In this document: in pieces, positions 2,814-60,831 of the stretch
Position numbering within the stretch: the first letter of the stretch is position 1
Layout of the letters: each line of letters opens with the position of its first letter
Source of the DNA: a virus
Virus record (IMG/VR): IMGVR_UViG_3300034198_016930
Span: 1-60,831 of that record
DNA length: 60,831 nucleotides
Reading direction: 5' to 3' (one strand)
Program-made: the position numbers and the translations under genes
Notes under the pieces: generated by a model
Database searches by the model: none
Told to the model about the DNA's origin: nothing
What the model saw: only the letters and a program-made list of their open reading frames with translations

Positions 2814-2932
2814 TACTTTGAAGTTTCTTTTTCCCGTTCCATACTTGCACACATAGCGCAGAATGGCTGATCTGATTCGTATTCAGCTTCTGTTTCTATT
2901 GGTGTCTTGCAAATAAAACATGTTTGCTTCAT
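2813..2932 (-). CDS. 39-aa zinc-knuckle microprotein
   Basis: A microgene found between the RNR and the glycosyltransferase-like gene. It has two C-x2-C pairs (CFIC at 5-8 and CAMC at 25-28) separated by an acidic linker, typical of a small treble-clef or zinc-ribbon fold. Its ATG overlaps the RNR stop (ATGA) and its TAA overlaps the next ATG, so it is translationally coupled on both sides. The function is unknown; position next to the RNR might point to a linked role, but this is inference. Confidence 0.7.
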   Translation of the reverse strand: MKQTCFICKTPIETEAEYESDQPFCAMCASMEREKETSK

Positions 2933-4959
2933 TTAACATCCTTAATCATCTTAACTTCACAAGCGTCTGTTGTGCAGTACATCTCTCCTACAGCATCAGC
3001 AGCCATACCTTCGTATACTCCCTTTAAATCAATTGGGAATAACTTCATACGACCATCCTCATACTTATCAGCTGTGATCTGAGTATACGGCATCTGTGGG
3101 TAGGTATCATCGGCCATTGGCAAAAACGATACGGTCTTAAGCTGACCATCGAACATGTGTAGCACGGTGCCTACATCTTTAGCTTCATTTTTTTGAAATG
3201 AAACCGTTACTGATACCGAGTTATCAGACCAATGGCGTTGAGCTGTAGCAGCTAGTGCTGCCTTCTCGAAAATTGAAACATCTTGCTCTGATCGCTTAGC
3301 TTCTGATTTGATAGGGAAAAACACAACGCTTGTTGTCTTTGGTGATTCACTAGCCTTCTCAACACGATAGCCAGCCATTTTAAACAACGGCAACATTGGG
3401 TCATCATTACCAAAACGAATAGCACGATCAAAAAACTGACCGCCCGGTGTCCAATGAACTCCCGGTGATTCTCCGGCTAAGATTGAAACTGTTCCTGATG
3501 GTTTAATAGTTGTGGTCTTGATTGACTCACGAATACCCAACCATTCTGAATAGATATCATCGTATGAAGCGATGGTGTTATATCCTCCATCCATCCACTC
3601 ACGAAGCTTTGGTAGGCCGTTGCGATCTGCAAAGTTAGCCACACCCGACATTGAAGTGCCAATGCGACGATTGCGCTGCATGATCGCATTTGTGTCTTCC
3701 CAGTGGGTAGGTAACAAAGTTACGGTTTTTGCGTACAGGTAAGCATACTTAAGTGTGCGCTTATAATCTTCCAAATTATCGTGACGATTAAGGTAAGTTT
3801 CTACTAGCGTACACATTTCATATGACTCTAGTGACTGCTCAGCGCAAGGGTTATACCCAGCTACACGCCAATCTTTATTGTTTGGTGGATCAATCAAACG
3901 ACCATAACTACGACTGATATCCATCCATACAACACCTGGCTCACCGTTGTTAGCAATACGCTCCACAATATGCTGTAGGTCATCGCCAACGTTAGCTTCC
4001 ACTGAGTTGTTTGACATCCATGCCCAGCCCGGTGACTTAGGATCATAGGAGTTACGCTCCGGGAATACGGCTGCATTCTTTAGATCCAGGAATGTTGTGT
4101 CATCCTGTCGACCAATCAATAGCTCTGCTGATCTACGCACATTACCGGACACCACACATACACCAATTTGATTTCCTAGATCGGCAATATCTTTACGGCT
4201 TAATTTTTCACCGGCACGTCCTGCAAAGTTGCTGCGGATCATGTCATGAAGTCTTAGGAGCGGTTCGTGTCCTGCTGCTGTGCCTCCAAAGGTCTTAATC
4301 GGAGCACCTGCCGGTCTGATGATTGAGTAGTCAAATACAGGGCTCTTCGTATCTGGCTTAAGGTAGCTGTTGATGAGTGCTGTAGTTGACTCAACCCAGC
4401 CTTCTCGGGTATCAGGGATGACATAAGTTTCTCCTTCCTTTGGGTCGTAAATTGTAAAATCTTTATCAGCGCCTTTATCGTCAAAGCCAACGCCAACTCC
4501 AAGCATTGAGGCTTCCATAAGGAATCCAAATGGCTTAGCTGGATCGTTCTTGTTCATAGAAGCTGTCGACACAAACGCACAGTTCTGTAGGGCAGCCGAG
4601 TTCTTATGCTCATTAATGAGCGGTGTGCCCATCATCCATAGACCACGTCCTGGCGGTGTCCATTTGAAATTAAACATACGATCAAAAGCTTCTTTAGCTG
4701 AGGCCTGAGCTTTCGCATCATTCCAAGGCAGTCGGTTGGTCTTGCAATGGTCCTTTTGTAGTGAAAACATCCCATTGATAACACGCTCGCAAGTATCAAC
4801 CCAAGTTTCCTTGTGGCCGTTTTCTTTAAGTCGTGAGTATGTGCGTAGGAATGTGATCTCTCCTACCGAGTTACCAGCTGCATCTTGGTACCCCCAAGGT
4901 ACCTTTTTAGCTCTGTACCCATTCACAAATTCATCTGCTAAACGGAATGTTAGGGGCAT
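2929..4959 (-). CDS. nrdJ: adenosylcobalamin-dependent ribonucleoside-triphosphate reductase (class II RNR)
   Basis: A 676-aa monomeric RTPR-type enzyme that reduces ribonucleotides to deoxyribonucleotides with a cobalamin-generated thiyl radical. The NPCAE motif (370-374) supplies the radical cysteine C372 with N370 and E374; C383 lies exactly 11 residues later and pairs with C127 (QNCAF) as the reducing pair, as in the Lactobacillus leichmannii enzyme. TTTIKPSGTVSIL (482-494) is the phosphate-binding loop and C662-x4-C667 at the C-terminus is the shuttle dithiol. All key residues are present, so it should be active if the host supplies B12. A promoter-like sequence lies upstream. Confidence 0.95.
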   Translation of the reverse strand: MPLTFRLADEFVNGYRAKKVPWGYQDAAGNSVGEITFLRTYSRLKENGHKETWVDTCERVINGMFSLQKDHCKTNRLPWNDAKAQASAKEAFDRMFNFKWTPPGRGLWMMGTPLINEHKNSAALQNCAFVSTASMNKNDPAKPFGFLMEASMLGVGVGFDDKGADKDFTIYDPKEGETYVIPDTREGWVESTTALINSYLKPDTKSPVFDYSIIRPAGAPIKTFGGTAAGHEPLLRLHDMIRSNFAGRAGEKLSRKDIADLGNQIGVCVVSGNVRRSAELLIGRQDDTTFLDLKNAAVFPERNSYDPKSPGWAWMSNNSVEANVGDDLQHIVERIANNGEPGVVWMDISRSYGRLIDPPNNKDWRVAGYNPCAEQSLESYEMCTLVETYLNRHDNLEDYKRTLKYAYLYAKTVTLLPTHWEDTNAIMQRNRRIGTSMSGVANFADRNGLPKLREWMDGGYNTIASYDDIYSEWLGIRESIKTTTIKPSGTVSILAGESPGVHWTPGGQFFDRAIRFGNDDPMLPLFKMAGYRVEKASESPKTTSVVFFPIKSEAKRSEQDVSIFEKAALAATAQRHWSDNSVSVTVSFQKNEAKDVGTVLHMFDGQLKTVSFLPMADDTYPQMPYTQITADKYEDGRMKLFPIDLKGVYEGMAADAVGEMYCTTDACEVKMIKDVK

Positions 4960-5087: not shown

Positions 5088-6542
5088 CTAATCTTCGATT
5101 GAGCCTTTAATGATCTGAGTTGTTTGATCTTCGGTCAATCCGCCATTAGGTAATTCGTTTAAATTTTTAGCTTTTTCACCAAAAATTTGGGACAAAACTC
5201 CAGAACTTCCTTGACGTTCTACCGTCATTCTGATGAACTCTCGGCTGTCATCTAGCTCCTTAGTTGTCTTAATAAGTTTGAACAATCTATCCAATTCTTG
5301 TGACAAATTTGGATCAGCGTATCCTCCGGACATTTCTTCTGAAAACCGCATAAATGCTACTCTTTGGCCCTGCATTTCAATCATAGAATTGATCAAACTC
5401 TTAAGTTGATCTTTAGTTTTTACTTCGATTGGAAGCTTGAATGCACATACAGATTGAGGCTTAAAAGCCGGGCAGTTAGCAGCTACAAAACATGTATCGC
5501 ATACCCTAAGACTTACCTGTTGCGATTGAATAACTGGAAGCTCACGAATGGTTCCATCGTCCTCAACTACCTGTTTAGACTCAAATCCAAAGACCGGTAA
5601 ATTGCCCATTTCTGCAGGATCACGGGGCATAATTTTCCGCATCTCTACCCCCGACCTATCACTTAAAGTGGGGTGCAGTTCCGTGTAATCGGCACCTGCT
5701 GGATCTTCGAAGTTATCATATAGGTTGGAGTTATCCATGGACGTTAACCTCGTTTCTAGTTGGTCAAAAGACCAAACTGCCAGCTTGCAAACCTCTTCAT
5801 TATCGTCGGCTAGGATCTTATCAAAGTCCAAACCGGCTTTTTCGTAAATGCCTTTGTAGCGTGGCCTTGCTTGGTCTTTCAGATCCTTGGGATATCTGAC
5901 CAGCTTGCTACCATCCCAGACTATGGTTTCACCACGGATCATGGGGCTAAGCCAAGACTGGGTGCTAGCGGTGCTTACAGGCACCTGTCGCAGGTTATCA
6001 GGGCGGGCGCAGCCCAAAGCATGGAAGCGGGTGCCCTCTTTGCGTATGTAGCTCTGAGCCTGTCCTGCAAGCCATGTGACTCCCTCAATAGCTTCTCCAC
6101 TGACACCAACATCAAGGTATTTAGCCGTCAATTCAGCAAGGCCGTTTTTACCACTGAGCTCATTCCAAACCGGCAAAAACTTAGCCGGAGGCATCTCGGC
6201 CCATACGGTTTCCCGTTGAGCTCTTACAAAGTCAGGGCTGACCTCGGGGTGGTTGATCTCAGTAAAACGATTAACTCTGTCAATGTTATCGACTACGAAC
6301 TCCTCGTAATCAGCTGCAAACTCTTCGAGCTCTGTCCGCCCAATTTTCATATTACGTGGGATTCCTGGGTGCAATAGCACAAAAGTATCTTCATCAAAGT
6401 AATTTTCTATCAAATACTTCTTGGTTTTAGGCAAGCCACGTTTGACTAATCTCCAATAACTGACACCCATAGACGTGGCACCAGCGGTGCCCAAAAGGAT
6501 GCGGTTGCTAGGGACCTCGGCCCCAAGATAAATAATCTTCAC
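5088..6542 (-). CDS. TGT/DpdA-like barrel protein with a C-terminal four-cysteine region
   Basis: A 484-aa protein. The N-terminal ~260 residues look like a TIM barrel of the tRNA-guanine transglycosylase type: alternating strands and helices, KFLPVWNE (121-128), GTRFHALGCARPDNLRQ (170-186) and STASTQSW (190-197), a region comparable to the substrate-binding part of TGT and of DpdA enzymes that insert 7-deazaguanines into DNA. A second part carries C348-x2-C351-x5-C357-x8-C366, which may bind zinc or an Fe-S cluster, then a helical domain. The cysteine spacing is not the standard TGT zinc site and no preQ0 synthesis genes are in the window. It overlaps the next upstream gene by 4 nt. The family call is tentative. 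Confidence 0.4.
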   Translation of the reverse strand: MKIIYLGAEVPSNRILLGTAGATSMGVSYWRLVKRGLPKTKKYLIENYFDEDTFVLLHPGIPRNMKIGRTELEEFAADYEEFVVDNIDRVNRFTEINHPEVSPDFVRAQRETVWAEMPPAKFLPVWNELSGKNGLAELTAKYLDVGVSGEAIEGVTWLAGQAQSYIRKEGTRFHALGCARPDNLRQVPVSTASTQSWLSPMIRGETIVWDGSKLVRYPKDLKDQARPRYKGIYEKAGLDFDKILADDNEEVCKLAVWSFDQLETRLTSMDNSNLYDNFEDPAGADYTELHPTLSDRSGVEMRKIMPRDPAEMGNLPVFGFESKQVVEDDGTIRELPVIQSQQVSLRVCDTCFVAANCPAFKPQSVCAFKLPIEVKTKDQLKSLINSMIEMQGQRVAFMRFSEEMSGGYADPNLSQELDRLFKLIKTTKELDDSREFIRMTVERQGSSGVLSQIFGEKAKNLNELPNGGLTEDQTTQIIKGSIED

Positions 6543-6994
6543 TTGCGCTTATCTTCCAACAACAAATCGGCTTGCGTGTTTAACTCATCTTTAATCTTAT
6601 CCCAAGCTTTCATGCCTTCAAAGCTATCAGGGCGAAACTTATGATCTAAATATGCTGGTTCTAAAAACAATAATACTCGATAACCTTTTTCCAGCAGATC
6701 AGCACTCAGCTTGGGATCGTGGGTAATAACAAAATCGATTGGCCCCTGACTTCTTACGTAATCAGCCAAAGGTATGTGCCACTCAATTATTGGATTAATG
6801 CTGGTTTTATCAATAATGTTATCGATCTTGATTGCTTTGTTTTCACGCAACCAACGGTCTGTGCGTTCTTTATCTTCCGCAATAACAATTACCGCATATT
6901 TTTCTTGAAGTGTGCGGAACAAGGCAAGGCCATCTTTGATAACCATATGTTGGTTATTGTGCAACACGCCTTCGGCGTAAATCAGTACAGCCAC
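6539..6994 (-). CDS. HAD-like fold protein lacking the catalytic aspartates
   Basis: A 151-aa protein with Rossmann-like strand/helix alternation. The N-terminus (MAVLIYAEGVLHNNQ) sits where HAD phosphatases carry the DxDGVL nucleophile motif, but both aspartates are absent. Later elements (ALFRTLQEKYAVIVIAEDKE; DFVITHDPKLSADLLEKGYRVLLFLEP) resemble the HAD T-motif region and the final strand. It may be a non-catalytic binding protein or a different fold. The stop overlaps the following gene's start (ATGA). The assignment is inference from pattern only. Confidence 0.35.
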   Translation of the reverse strand: MAVLIYAEGVLHNNQHMVIKDGLALFRTLQEKYAVIVIAEDKERTDRWLRENKAIKIDNIIDKTSINPIIEWHIPLADYVRSQGPIDFVITHDPKLSADLLEKGYRVLLFLEPAYLDHKFRPDSFEGMKAWDKIKDELNTQADLLLEDKRK

Positions 6995-7018: not shown

Positions 7019-7948
7019 TTAATAAAGCGTAGCAGCTCGACGTATAAGCGTCGAAACGTCTGGTAACTCTACTCCATATGTAGCTGAAGCAAATTCTCTA
7101 CTAGACATATCTGCAATTTCTTTAAGTTTTGCTAGGGCTTGAACAACTCCAGCCTCTTTGCCTGACTGCCAACGGTAGTTAGCATAGTCAAGGTAACCAG
7201 CACCAGCTTCGCTGAATGCATACTTACGGCCTTCATGAATATCATCAAATAAAGCTGCAGCTTGTTGTACTGCTAGCTTAAGCGCAGATTCTGCGTTAAC
7301 TCGAGCTGCAGGGTTAGTGGAAGCGTGGATCTTTGACAAAGCTGCTGCATATCTTGCGATGATCTCTGCTGCTGCGCCTTTATCCTTTTCGGCTTTTAAA
7401 ACCCAATCAGCTTTATTAGGGGCTTCATCAATAGTGGGCTCAACAACCCAATCGTCATTAGTTAATGAGTAGGCTGCGTATGGTTTGATCTTAGTTATAT
7501 CTGATTGAACATTGACATAAAAAGTTAATTCAAACGAATCCATAAACTCAGCCGTCAATGGCCAAAGATCGGATTTAAATCCTGCATTAAACATGCTTGC
7601 AATTTCTTTGTCACTGAGTCCAACATAGCGGGGATTAGATTGACGAAACTGTATGTAGTTAATTCCTACTAAGCAATCAAGATCACCCGGATCTCGTTTA
7701 GCTGCCCATTGATGGGAAACCCCTGAGCCGGCTAACCAAGCATTGGTCCAATCTTGGGAACCTTGAAATATTTTGTCTAAATACCCAAACAGCATGCTTA
7801 GAACATTTGTTCGAATAGTTGGAATCAGTTTATTGTTTCTAAATAGGCGTGGATCTAGTCCTGGGGAAGCTTTGCTGAAATACGAGGTTTGTGCAGGTTC
7901 GATGCTGACCGGCACTGCTTTTGCAGCCAACGCCTCGTAAAAATCCAT
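7019..7948 (-). CDS. putative nucleotidyltransferase-fold protein
   Basis: A 309-aa protein. Residues 73-93 hold AGSGVS followed after about 10 residues by GDLDCLVG, matching the hG(S/G)...DxD metal-binding signature of the polymerase-beta nucleotidyltransferase superfamily (G74, S75, D89, D91). The C-terminal half is helical and alanine-rich. Such proteins add nucleotides to RNA, proteins or small molecules; the substrate here is unknown. It lies immediately downstream of the Ntn hydrolase (14-nt gap) and may be co-transcribed with it. Confidence 0.5.
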   Translation of the reverse strand: MDFYEALAAKAVPVSIEPAQTSYFSKASPGLDPRLFRNNKLIPTIRTNVLSMLFGYLDKIFQGSQDWTNAWLAGSGVSHQWAAKRDPGDLDCLVGINYIQFRQSNPRYVGLSDKEIASMFNAGFKSDLWPLTAEFMDSFELTFYVNVQSDITKIKPYAAYSLTNDDWVVEPTIDEAPNKADWVLKAEKDKGAAAEIIARYAAALSKIHASTNPAARVNAESALKLAVQQAAALFDDIHEGRKYAFSEAGAGYLDYANYRWQSGKEAGVVQALAKLKEIADMSSREFASATYGVELPDVSTLIRRAATLY

Positions 7949-7962
7949 AGCTATATTCTATG

Positions 7963-8529
7963 CTATGCGTACTGTATTTGGGTGTGTATCTTTCCACCAG
8001 AATAGATATCGTGTTGAATTGCGATGTCTATTGACCGGCGAATTAACTTTTCCACGGCTTCGGGTGATTTGGCTTTTTTATATTCCAAAGCTTCGAGAGC
8101 TCCAAGGGCAACATCGCCACCGCTGCCAGCATAATAAACATTACGAGCCTCACGATCCCAAGAATAATCTTCAAAAATGGGGTACAAAACGCCACGGATG
8201 GACACAATTAAATTGGAATCGTGACCAGCAAAATCGCCGTCATCTTTGGCATCATAGCCAGCTTTAATAAATACTTCACGCATATCTGGGATAAAACGTT
8301 TTGTAATAAAAGAATCTAAATCTTCATTTGCACGAGGTTTTGGCGGTTTCCAACCAAACTGAGTAATGTTTCCACCACGTGAAGCTCCAGACACGGCAAT
8401 AAGAACACCGTTGTTATCAATAATTTTAGGGGTTGCAAGATCCATATAACGGCCACCTTCATCGGATGCACGGCTATCGCAGCCCATAACAGACCAGCCG
8501 TTACCCTGCACCGCAATTAGCGTTGTCAT
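7963..8529 (-). CDS. proteasome beta/HslV-like Ntn hydrolase
   Basis: A 188-aa protein. After removal of Met1 the N-terminus is TTLIAV, and with Thr2 as residue 1 the acidic residue of GCDSRAS falls exactly at position 17, as in HslV and proteasome beta subunits (catalytic Thr1 and Asp17). TPKII supplies the lysine near position 33-34, and AGSGGDVALGALEAL (134-148) matches the conserved Ser-Gly-Gly loop and following helix. The length is close to HslV (~175 aa). There is no propeptide. It should assemble into a ring and hydrolyse peptides. No unfoldase gene is evident in the window, so it may use a host ATPase or act on phage precursors. Confidence 0.75.
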   Translation of the reverse strand: MTTLIAVQGNGWSVMGCDSRASDEGGRYMDLATPKIIDNNGVLIAVSGASRGGNITQFGWKPPKPRANEDLDSFITKRFIPDMREVFIKAGYDAKDDGDFAGHDSNLIVSIRGVLYPIFEDYSWDREARNVYYAGSGGDVALGALEALEYKKAKSPEAVEKLIRRSIDIAIQHDIYSGGKIHTQIQYA

Positions 8530-8544
8530 TACTATCCCCTGTCG

Positions 8545-8826
8545 TTACATGATGTTTCGGTCAGATAAAGCATTCCTTATTTCGGTAGCTCTTTGTGAGC
8601 TATCCGAACTGTTACTTTGTTGAAGTTTGCCAAGCAAGGTGTTTGCTAAGTCATCTTCAATGAGAAAATCTGACACTTCTCTGCTACCCGCTTTAATATC
8701 TGATCGCAAAGCTGCTCTAGAAATAACCATAGCAGCGCTGATATCAGCTGTAGCTGACCATGATCCATCAAACTCTTTTACAACTAAAAAAGCTGTTTCA
8801 GCATCTGGTTTTAATTCATCCGTCAT
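8545..8826 (-). CDS. hypothetical protein
   Basis: A 93-aa unknown protein. The N-terminal half looks like a small beta-rich domain (AFLVVKEFDGSWSATADIS) and the C-terminal half is helical and acidic. The start overlaps the upstream gene's stop (ATGA) and the gene lies just before the Ntn hydrolase, so co-expression with it is likely. No motif was recognised. Confidence 0.6.
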   Translation of the reverse strand: MTDELKPDAETAFLVVKEFDGSWSATADISAAMVISRAALRSDIKAGSREVSDFLIEDDLANTLLGKLQQSNSSDSSQRATEIRNALSDRNIM

Positions 8827-14424: not shown

Positions 14425-15268
14425 GAAGAAGCTCCTCTTGATAGTGGTCACACTTCTTACAACCGGCTGAACCGCCGATGTTGCACATAGGAGGAATCTT
14501 AGCGTCAACGGCTTTGAGAATTTCCAAAGCTTGATCAAACAACTCAGTAACTCCGAAGTCGCTCTTTTGTACAAAGAACTCTTTAACTTCGTGTGACCAC
14601 TTAGCTTCGTATATAAATACGATTTCTTGTGGAGCATCTGGAACTTCCATAATTTCTAAAAGTTTCAAATAAATTTGTGCTTGAAGAACGTGCTCAATAA
14701 AGGGGGCTTCTAAGTTTTTCCAAGCCTCTCTGTGATCCCCATTAGCTTTAGCTAATAGATCAGGGGCATACCAACGAAACGACCCTTCCCCAAGTGTTTT
14801 AATTTCAAGAAGTAAATCTCCACCAAAACCGACTAACCAACCATCTGCTTTACCGGCAATACGGTGCATTTCGCTACGTACAGGAACTTCGTGATAAGCA
14901 ACCTCATGACCCGCTTCGTGCTCGCTTCTAATACCTGTCCACTCAAACTTGCAATCTGTACATTTCCAAATTCCTTTTATCTTGTCCATTTCGCCAAACC
15001 ACTCTTGCCAACGTGAATGAGCTGCGTGTCCTGTATCAAATACCAAACGTTTTGCTAATCCATGGTGTTCGTTTTTTGGTTCAAAACCCATTAATAAAAA
15101 ATATTGTTCACGGTGACACCATGTTTTACTTGCCATTGCCGATGGGTGAATAACTAACATATTGCGATCATCTTTAGGGCGGGCCATTAAATATCTATCT
15201 ACCTGTCCTATTACTCTGGTGCCTTTATCTGCGGATAAGAACGCTTTCAATGCACCAGATTTAATCAT
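14405..15268 (-). CDS. Cas4/RecB-like Fe-S PD-(D/E)XK exonuclease
   Basis: A 287-aa protein. The nuclease core is GKADGWLVG followed by DLLLEIKTLG (D142, E155, K157). One cysteine near the N-terminus (C51, KTWCHREQY) and three near the C-terminus (C262, C270, C273) reproduce the Cas4/AddB arrangement that holds a [4Fe-4S] cluster. A CTDC pair at 103-106 may bind a second metal. It likely resects DNA ends for RecA-dependent recombination and replication. It is coupled to the WhiB gene by an ATGA overlap. Confidence 0.85.
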   Translation of the reverse strand: MIKSGALKAFLSADKGTRVIGQVDRYLMARPKDDRNMLVIHPSAMASKTWCHREQYFLLMGFEPKNEHHGLAKRLVFDTGHAAHSRWQEWFGEMDKIKGIWKCTDCKFEWTGIRSEHEAGHEVAYHEVPVRSEMHRIAGKADGWLVGFGGDLLLEIKTLGEGSFRWYAPDLLAKANGDHREAWKNLEAPFIEHVLQAQIYLKLLEIMEVPDAPQEIVFIYEAKWSHEVKEFFVQKSDFGVTELFDQALEILKAVDAKIPPMCNIGGSAGCKKCDHYQEELLRERIID

Positions 15269-15579
15269 TTTTTATGTACCCATTCTTCTAAAGTCATGTG
15301 ATGCTTTGCAGCTTTTCTGCGTAAAGCATTTCTTTCACGGTGACTGAGACCGCCCCAGATACCGTGCTGCTCATCGTTACCTTCTGCATATAGGAGGCAC
15401 TGTAAGCGCACTGGACATTCTGCCTTACCATCTTTGCCAAAGCAAATCGCCTTGGCCTTATCGGCTATGTCTTTGTATTGGTCTTTGTCTCTTGGCGGAA
15501 ACCACAACTCGGTATCTTCGCCACGGCACTTAGCAGCGTAACGCCACTTTTCTAGGCCTTCGTCTTCGTACAAGTGCAC
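15265..15579 (-). CDS. WhiB-family Fe-S transcriptional regulator with an expanded cysteine loop
   Basis: A 104-aa protein with a GTG start. C18, C46, C55 and C61 are the predicted [4Fe-4S] ligands; GIWGGLSHRERNALRRK (73-89) is the WhiB G(I/V)WGG turn and basic DNA-contact region. Usual WhiB proteins have C-x2-C for the second and third ligands, but here eight residues separate C46 and C55. The C-x5-C spacing of the third and fourth is normal. It probably redirects the host sigma factor at promoters. It overlaps the flanking nuclease genes. Confidence 0.9.
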   Translation of the reverse strand: MHLYEDEGLEKWRYAAKCRGEDTELWFPPRDKDQYKDIADKAKAICFGKDGKAECPVRLQCLLYAEGNDEQHGIWGGLSHRERNALRRKAAKHHMTLEEWVHKK

Positions 15580-60746: not shown

Positions 60747-60830
60747 TTAGTTGGTTTCTGCAATGATTACAGACTGGTCAGTGATTAGACCAAGACCGAA
60801 GATTGAGTACCAAGCAAGTGCGTGCTCACG
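60747..60830 (-). CDS. C-terminus of the probable major capsid protein (partial)
   Basis: The last 27 codons of a gene entering from the right edge: REHALAWYSIFGLGLITD, then QSVIIAETN and TAA. The aromatic W-Y-S-I-F pattern and final beta strand resemble the C-terminus of HK97-fold capsid proteins, and a strong hairpin follows. The identity as capsid is inferred from the ending and from location before the virion genes. Confidence 0.5.
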   Translation of the reverse strand, partial: REHALAWYSIFGLGLITDQSVIIAETN

Positions 60831-60831
60831 A

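Follow-up and report, generated by a model that had tools for sequence, protein, structure and literature searches.

An actinophage clade encodes a predicted proteasome-like threonine peptidase with an acidic pore loop

Phage-encoded homologues of the proteasome, PPH and AAH, were described in 2021 by Fuchs, Alva and Lupas (PMC8665760), in a survey that found no Actinobacteria-specific phage with an AAH. It is the one paper on phage proteasome homologues that our literature search returned; no functional study was found, and in the literature searched phage proteasome-like peptidases are known only from sequence and have no demonstrated function. PPH, AAH, CPH and the family phrog_1040 share with the peptidase analysed here a phage origin, the lack of a propeptide, Thr1, Asp17 and Lys33, and a compact subunit that has no C-terminal extension and no known AAA+ partner. 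The wider proteasome-like family also includes connectase, a monomeric ligase (PMC8665760). Among relatives of known structure, BPH combines a long acidic pore loop with the absence of an unfoldase, and HslV has a short linker (PMC5777263).

We analysed a stretch of viral DNA of 60,831 nucleotides (the window; IMG/VR record IMGVR_UViG_3300034198_016930) that encodes a peptidase of this kind (Table 1). An earlier note on this DNA had proposed a proteasome/HslV-like Ntn hydrolase that looks active and is not a pseudo-subunit. HslV and proteasome beta subunits use Thr1, Asp17 and Lys33 for catalysis. With numbering from Thr2, the GCDSRAS motif has its acidic residue, Asp17, where the note had it, and the SGG loop that it had pointed to is in place, with GSGG at residues 135–138 and YSGG at 176–179. 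By the same numbering the lysine is residue 34, and it aligns with Lys33 of HslV and the proteasome through a one-residue insertion. The reading frame has 193 codons from the preceding stop, and the five codons ahead of the ATG contain no start codon, which excludes residues before Thr2; the shifted start that the note had raised as a danger to its claim was therefore not found. Met-Thr occurs at the same start point in 80 first-pass relatives (ATG, sometimes TTG), GTG starts also occur in a second set, and almost every relative begins with Met-Thr. In the homologue of Moorella phage MTATph1 (L097:6001-6555), the annotated start lies 42 bases too late and the catalytic N terminus is lost.

Across 103 distinct viral sequences, the Asp17 and Lys33 equivalents are invariant, and the position of proteasome Ser169 is Ser or Thr in 98 (the other catalytic positions are given in Table 1). 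Median dN/dS among close relatives was 0.106 (505 usable pairs, 50 sequences). Because the catalytic residues are kept and dN/dS is low, the peptidase is, judged from its sequences, an enzyme maintained by selection and not a pseudo-subunit, in agreement with the earlier note.

Table 1. Features of the window discussed in the text.
Feature	Position	Strand	Basis and remarks
Proteasome-like (Ntn) threonine peptidase gene, 188 aa, ATG start	7963..8529	(-)	ORF, Pfam, phrog_1040, AlphaFold and Foldseek
Shine-Dalgarno-like AGGGGA ahead of the peptidase ATG	8535..8540	(-)	Sequence; G-rich motifs equally placed in relatives
Codon of nucleophile Thr2 (Thr1 once Met is removed)	8524..8526	(-)	Thr in 102/103 distinct viral sequences, Ser in 1
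Codon of Asp18 (Asp17)	8476..8478	(-)	Invariant Asp (viral sequences 103/103, bacterial 18/18)
Codon of Lys35, aligned with Lys33	8425..8427	(-)	Invariant Lys (viral sequences 103/103, bacterial 18/18); also Lys in E. coli HslV
Acidic loop AGYDAKDDGDFAGHD, residues 90-104, at the pore-loop site between helix H2 and the next strand	8218..8262	(-)	15 residues, net charge -4
Codon of Ser136 (proteasome Ser129), in GSGG	8122..8124	(-)	Ser in 100/103 viral sequences
Codons of Asp174-Ser177 (proteasome Asp166...Ser169)	7999..8010	(-)	Asp174 in 98/103; residue 177 Ser in 69, Thr in 29, Val in 5
93-aa gene directly upstream of the peptidase	8545..8826	(-)	Conserved neighbour in placement C
309-aa nucleotidyltransferase-like gene (by motif), next downstream of the peptidase	7019..7948	(-)	Weak DUF6932 match, E 0.003; GS...DxDxL by eye; conserved in placement C
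151-aa gene, HAD-like by eye	6539..6994	(-)	No family match
DpdA-like/queuine tRNA-ribosyltransferase family gene	5088..6542	(-)	phrog_887, E 1.8e-52
WhiB-family gene, marker of actinobacterial hosts	15265..15579	(-)	PF02467, E 2.9e-19

The proposed proteasome-type Ntn fold was borne out by sequence families and by structure, at levels far above chance. The protein matched Pfam Proteasome (PF00227) at 29.4 bits against a gathering score of 22.4 (E 7.8e-7) and the phrog_1040 'peptidase HslV family' over its full length (residues 1–183, E 9.4e-22), and a profile of 24 sequences retrieved HslV as its top match in the PDB (E 5e-15), with BPH at 6e-11. The structural comparison that the earlier note had suggested was run on an AlphaFold model (pLDDT 92.2, pTM 0.88): Foldseek placed BPH on top (E 1.6e-11), followed by HslV and 20S beta subunits. 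There were 1056 PDB structure matches at E<=0.001, the best 50 of which were all BPH, HslV or 20S, and 34 viral models in BFVD matched at the same threshold. VIA-align gave a Z of 19.8 for BPH and 18–19.8 for 20S subunits. TM-scores to BPH from Foldseek were 0.72–0.74, at which a shared ring interface is not to be assumed.

The label given in the earlier note holds for the fold and not for membership of either named family. The peptidase scored 17.4–17.9 bits against the HslV equivalog models (cut-offs 137 and 157.75 bits) and has no linked HslU, which rules out HslV proper. It scored 25.1 bits against the 20S beta equivalog TIGR03634 (cut-off 224), which rules out a 20S beta subunit; no alpha-subunit partner was found, each phage contig having one Proteasome-family ORF. 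Like E. coli HslV, it begins with Met-Thr without a long propeptide and has Thr1, Asp17, Lys33 and the GSGG serine; unlike it, the peptidase has no 6-residue linker, and E. coli HslV has Cys and Thr at the Asp166 and Ser169 positions. With 20S beta subunits of archaea and bacteria it shares the fold and the Ser129/Asp166/Ser169 set. BPH (PDB 5ovs, 5ovt and 5ovu), although only 16–20% identical, is the closest solved structure; the window's member, by contrast, is a phage gene. The peptidase is a branch of the described group of phage and bacterial proteasome homologues, and the kind is already known, from the 2021 description and from records annotated 'peptidase HslV family'. At about 188 aa, it is too long for a typical PPH (about 140 aa).

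The nearest annotated phage protein is the 'ATP-dependent protease subunit' of Actinomycetia phage DSL-LC01 (OQ999401), 38% identical over the full length. In that phage WhiB adjoins the peptidase and terminase lies about 6 kb downstream, but the protein has a longer, Lys/Arg-rich C-terminal tail and the genome belongs to another lineage. The window's peptidase, DSL-LC01 and their kin form an MTT clade (96/82), separate from an MTCI clade in which actinobacterial copies from chromosomes stand with some further phages; the deep part of this tree is weakened by long branches. Of 395 genomes of the actinobacterial class scanned with an HMM, 35 contain a full-length homologue. The bacterial homologues examined belong to the separate MTCI clade and were rejected as the source of the phage gene, and a scan of bacterial contigs with narrow sequence patterns found no relatives. 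An MTCI-type chromosomal locus recurs (L155-L174), where aldo-keto reductase and Spo0M-like genes are frequent neighbours and an FdhD-like gene also occurs, all judged by eye; no AAA+ neighbour was evident at the loci examined.

Relatives of the peptidase were found in 19 phage records and in at least 535 matching stretches in IMG/VR, on genomes or contigs of 40–136 kb. The middle of the window had no Megablast match among phage records. WhiB was present in all 26 peptidase-bearing contigs searched, and Corynebacterium alone matched among the control genomes; from these sequences, the hosts are almost certainly actinobacteria, and the window's virus probably infects freshwater actinobacteria. 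The presence of the peptidase in WhiB-bearing phages also differs from the 2021 paper's finding of no Actinobacteria-specific phage with an AAH. As far as the literature searched extends, a widespread actinophage clade with an acidic loop and a link to packaging genes has not been described.

The loop at the pore-loop site resembles that of BPH, which likewise has an extended acidic loop and no dedicated unfoldase. Viral medians are 15 residues and a charge of -4, compared with 6 residues in E. coli HslV; the loop is the least confident block of the AlphaFold model. The earlier note had seen no unfoldase in the window, and this was confirmed: the only AAA matches there are a DnaC-like protein and a DnaB helicase, with no HslU/ClpX-type AAA_2 at all, and none passed the cut-off in 19 phage contigs. 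The 100-kb relatives have a recurring AAA+ ORF of 470–500 aa, 8–11 kb from the peptidase, which is an AAA_5 protein with DEVNF and ATMNP motifs, CobS/MoxR-like. It lies on the strand opposite the peptidase (L082:11712-13121, L193:13535-15469), with a VWA protein adjoining in G007. As the search of the 40-kb members G013–G016 yielded no such ORF, we rejected this CobS/MoxR-like neighbour of a VWA gene as an obligatory partner unfoldase. On the host side, 201 genomes were scanned from a single order of freshwater actinobacteria, which was reached from a freshwater MAG, has genomes mostly of about 1–1.5 Mb and may not be the host's; Mpa/ARC passed the cut-off in 5 of them. Table 1 of PMC8665760 gives no HslV for Actinobacteria. 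Given no dedicated unfoldase, a 15-residue acidic loop and scarce Mpa/ARC, the sequences suggest that the peptidase probably acts motor-free, in the manner of BPH.

Among related actinophages the gene occupies four genome placements (A–D), as a single copy on each contig checked. In placement A (100-kb phages), Hsp20 and/or KTSC-like genes are followed by the peptidase, decoration-like genes and then head genes, with terminase, portal, a scaffold-like gene and the major capsid protein (MCP) gene about 8–15 kb beyond the peptidase; contig G007 runs from peptidase to terminase, portal, scaffold and MCP. In placement B (40-kb phages), portal is directly upstream in 28 loci, with the peptidase 14 bases after portal in L061, and a scaffold-like protein and MCP follow further down the same strand (in G013, terminase, portal and peptidase, then scaffold and MCP). 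Placement D (130-kb phages) has the order peptidase, phosphatase, histone-deacetylase-like gene, terminase, the third of these with E 3.9e-53 in L137, where it was scanned. At 54 loci the sequence extends at least 7 kb to either side of the gene; in 32 of these, terminase or portal lay in the flank on the peptidase's strand, and in none on the opposite strand. The terminases tested of placement A align neither with those of D nor with those of B, so unrelated phages carry peptidases that are 63–85% identical in comparable places, within a few kb of terminase or portal in three unrelated lineages.

Placement C comprises the window and nine further contigs (10 loci). Here the peptidase sits, with tight gene spacing, between the 93-aa gene and nucleotidyltransferase-like, HAD-like, DpdA-like and ribonucleotide reductase genes, with no virion genes adjoining; the same gene run is present in G007 without the peptidase. 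Because the nine further contigs have the window's gene order too, again tightly spaced, an assembly chimera was ruled out as its origin, and recombination of the gene was set aside as the origin of placement C, a one-clade origin not being rejected (p-AU 0.43). The window is a fragment. Its right end (60750-60831) lies inside the MCP gene, so portal, scaffold and terminase are probably just outside. In more distant phages the peptidase stands beside thymidylate/DHFR, tRNA or HNH genes.

We lean, with slightly more confidence than doubt, towards an active proteasome-like threonine peptidase that forms a closed ring barrel, has no dedicated unfoldase and acts late on phage proteins. Removal of Met before Thr is the established specificity of methionine aminopeptidase, and the host's enzyme would strip Met1 and expose Thr1 with no propeptide involved. 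Subunits with this fold would form a closed ring barrel around the active sites, where the residues present predict peptide-bond cleavage by the Thr1/Asp17/Lys33 mechanism. With no dedicated unfoldase, unfolded or flexible substrates would enter past the acidic pore loop, as in BPH. Later in infection the substrates would be phage-made proteins, for example scaffold and misfolded or flexible virion precursors, which may be cleared or trimmed, as the gene position in relatives suggests. Placements A, B and D make a late role on phage-made proteins the most economical reading, whereas the neighbours in placement C argue against a late virion role. Processing of phage precursors, one of three options in the earlier note, gains from the gene position in relatives, but not from the window's own gene order.

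A more specific form of virion role, a capsid-maturation (prohead) protease co-expressed with portal and scaffold that degrades scaffold or trims head proteins before packaging, is unlikely in our estimate. It would account for the gene order of the 40-kb relatives, and no S78, S14 or S49 protease passed the cut-off in 21 peptidase-bearing contigs; however, weak S78-like matches below the cut-off occurred in two 130-kb contigs, and the S77 search had no positive control. The gene is also not adjacent to portal or MCP in the 100-kb and 130-kb relatives, in the window's lineage it is not part of the head module, and phages that have a separate scaffold can often do without a protease. That proteasome-fold peptidases serve as head-assembly proteases, removing scaffold or trimming precursors, in several unrelated actinophage lineages seems rather doubtful; we know of no case of the fold in that role.

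Host-directed roles stay in play because of placement C and the varied gene contexts of distant phages. The phosphatase and histone-deacetylase-like neighbours in the 130-kb members fit host takeover equally well, accessory or nucleotide-metabolism regions house many of the distant homologues, and the gene is mobile among placements, all of which would suit a protease for host takeover or counter-defence with particular host proteins as its targets. So narrow an anti-host weapon would less typically be strongly conserved over hundreds of phages and lie close to packaging genes, and we hold this role to be quite improbable. Recruitment of a host AAA+ unfoldase (Mpa/ARC, ClpX, ClpC or similar), redirecting host degradation, draws on the fold shared with HslV and proteasome beta subunits, both of which have AAA+ partners, and on hosts from a phylum with Pup-proteasome systems. 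The few Mpa/ARC genomes, the absence of HslV from the actinobacterial listing and the long acidic loop, as in unfoldase-less BPH, tell against it; it is the least supported of the earlier note's three options, and its probability is small. A specialised amidase or ligase would have a precedent in connectase, yet the model's secondary structure shows no helical insertion of the connectase type between S3 and S4, and the Ser129, Asp166 and Ser169 equivalents are kept, which makes this very improbable.

The clade, widespread in freshwater virus collections, combines a conserved active site with actinobacterial hosts and no dedicated unfoldase, and raises the question of a proteasome-type barrel working without a motor during phage assembly. 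If such a barrel does work in this way, the retention of these genes by phages would be accounted for, and virion assembly would gain a new type of enzyme.

Several other genes in these regions deserve mention. At L007:6547-6996 and elsewhere in placement A, a small heat shock gene of the Hsp20 family often precedes the peptidase by about 1–2 kb, a possible chaperone–protease pairing. In placement D, genes resembling a dual-specificity phosphatase and a histone deacetylase come after the peptidase, just before terminase (L137:8638-10075, L108:8821-10282). Long Lys/Arg-rich proteins are encoded near terminase or portal (L007:12537-16028, L194:2657-5590, L061:4895-6247); those scanned, in L194 and L061, had no family matches, and they are possibly internal head proteins. 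In the window itself, a B12-dependent (class II) ribonucleotide reductase is encoded at 2929-4959, and the DpdA-like gene may point to 7-deazaguanine modification of DNA in this phage.
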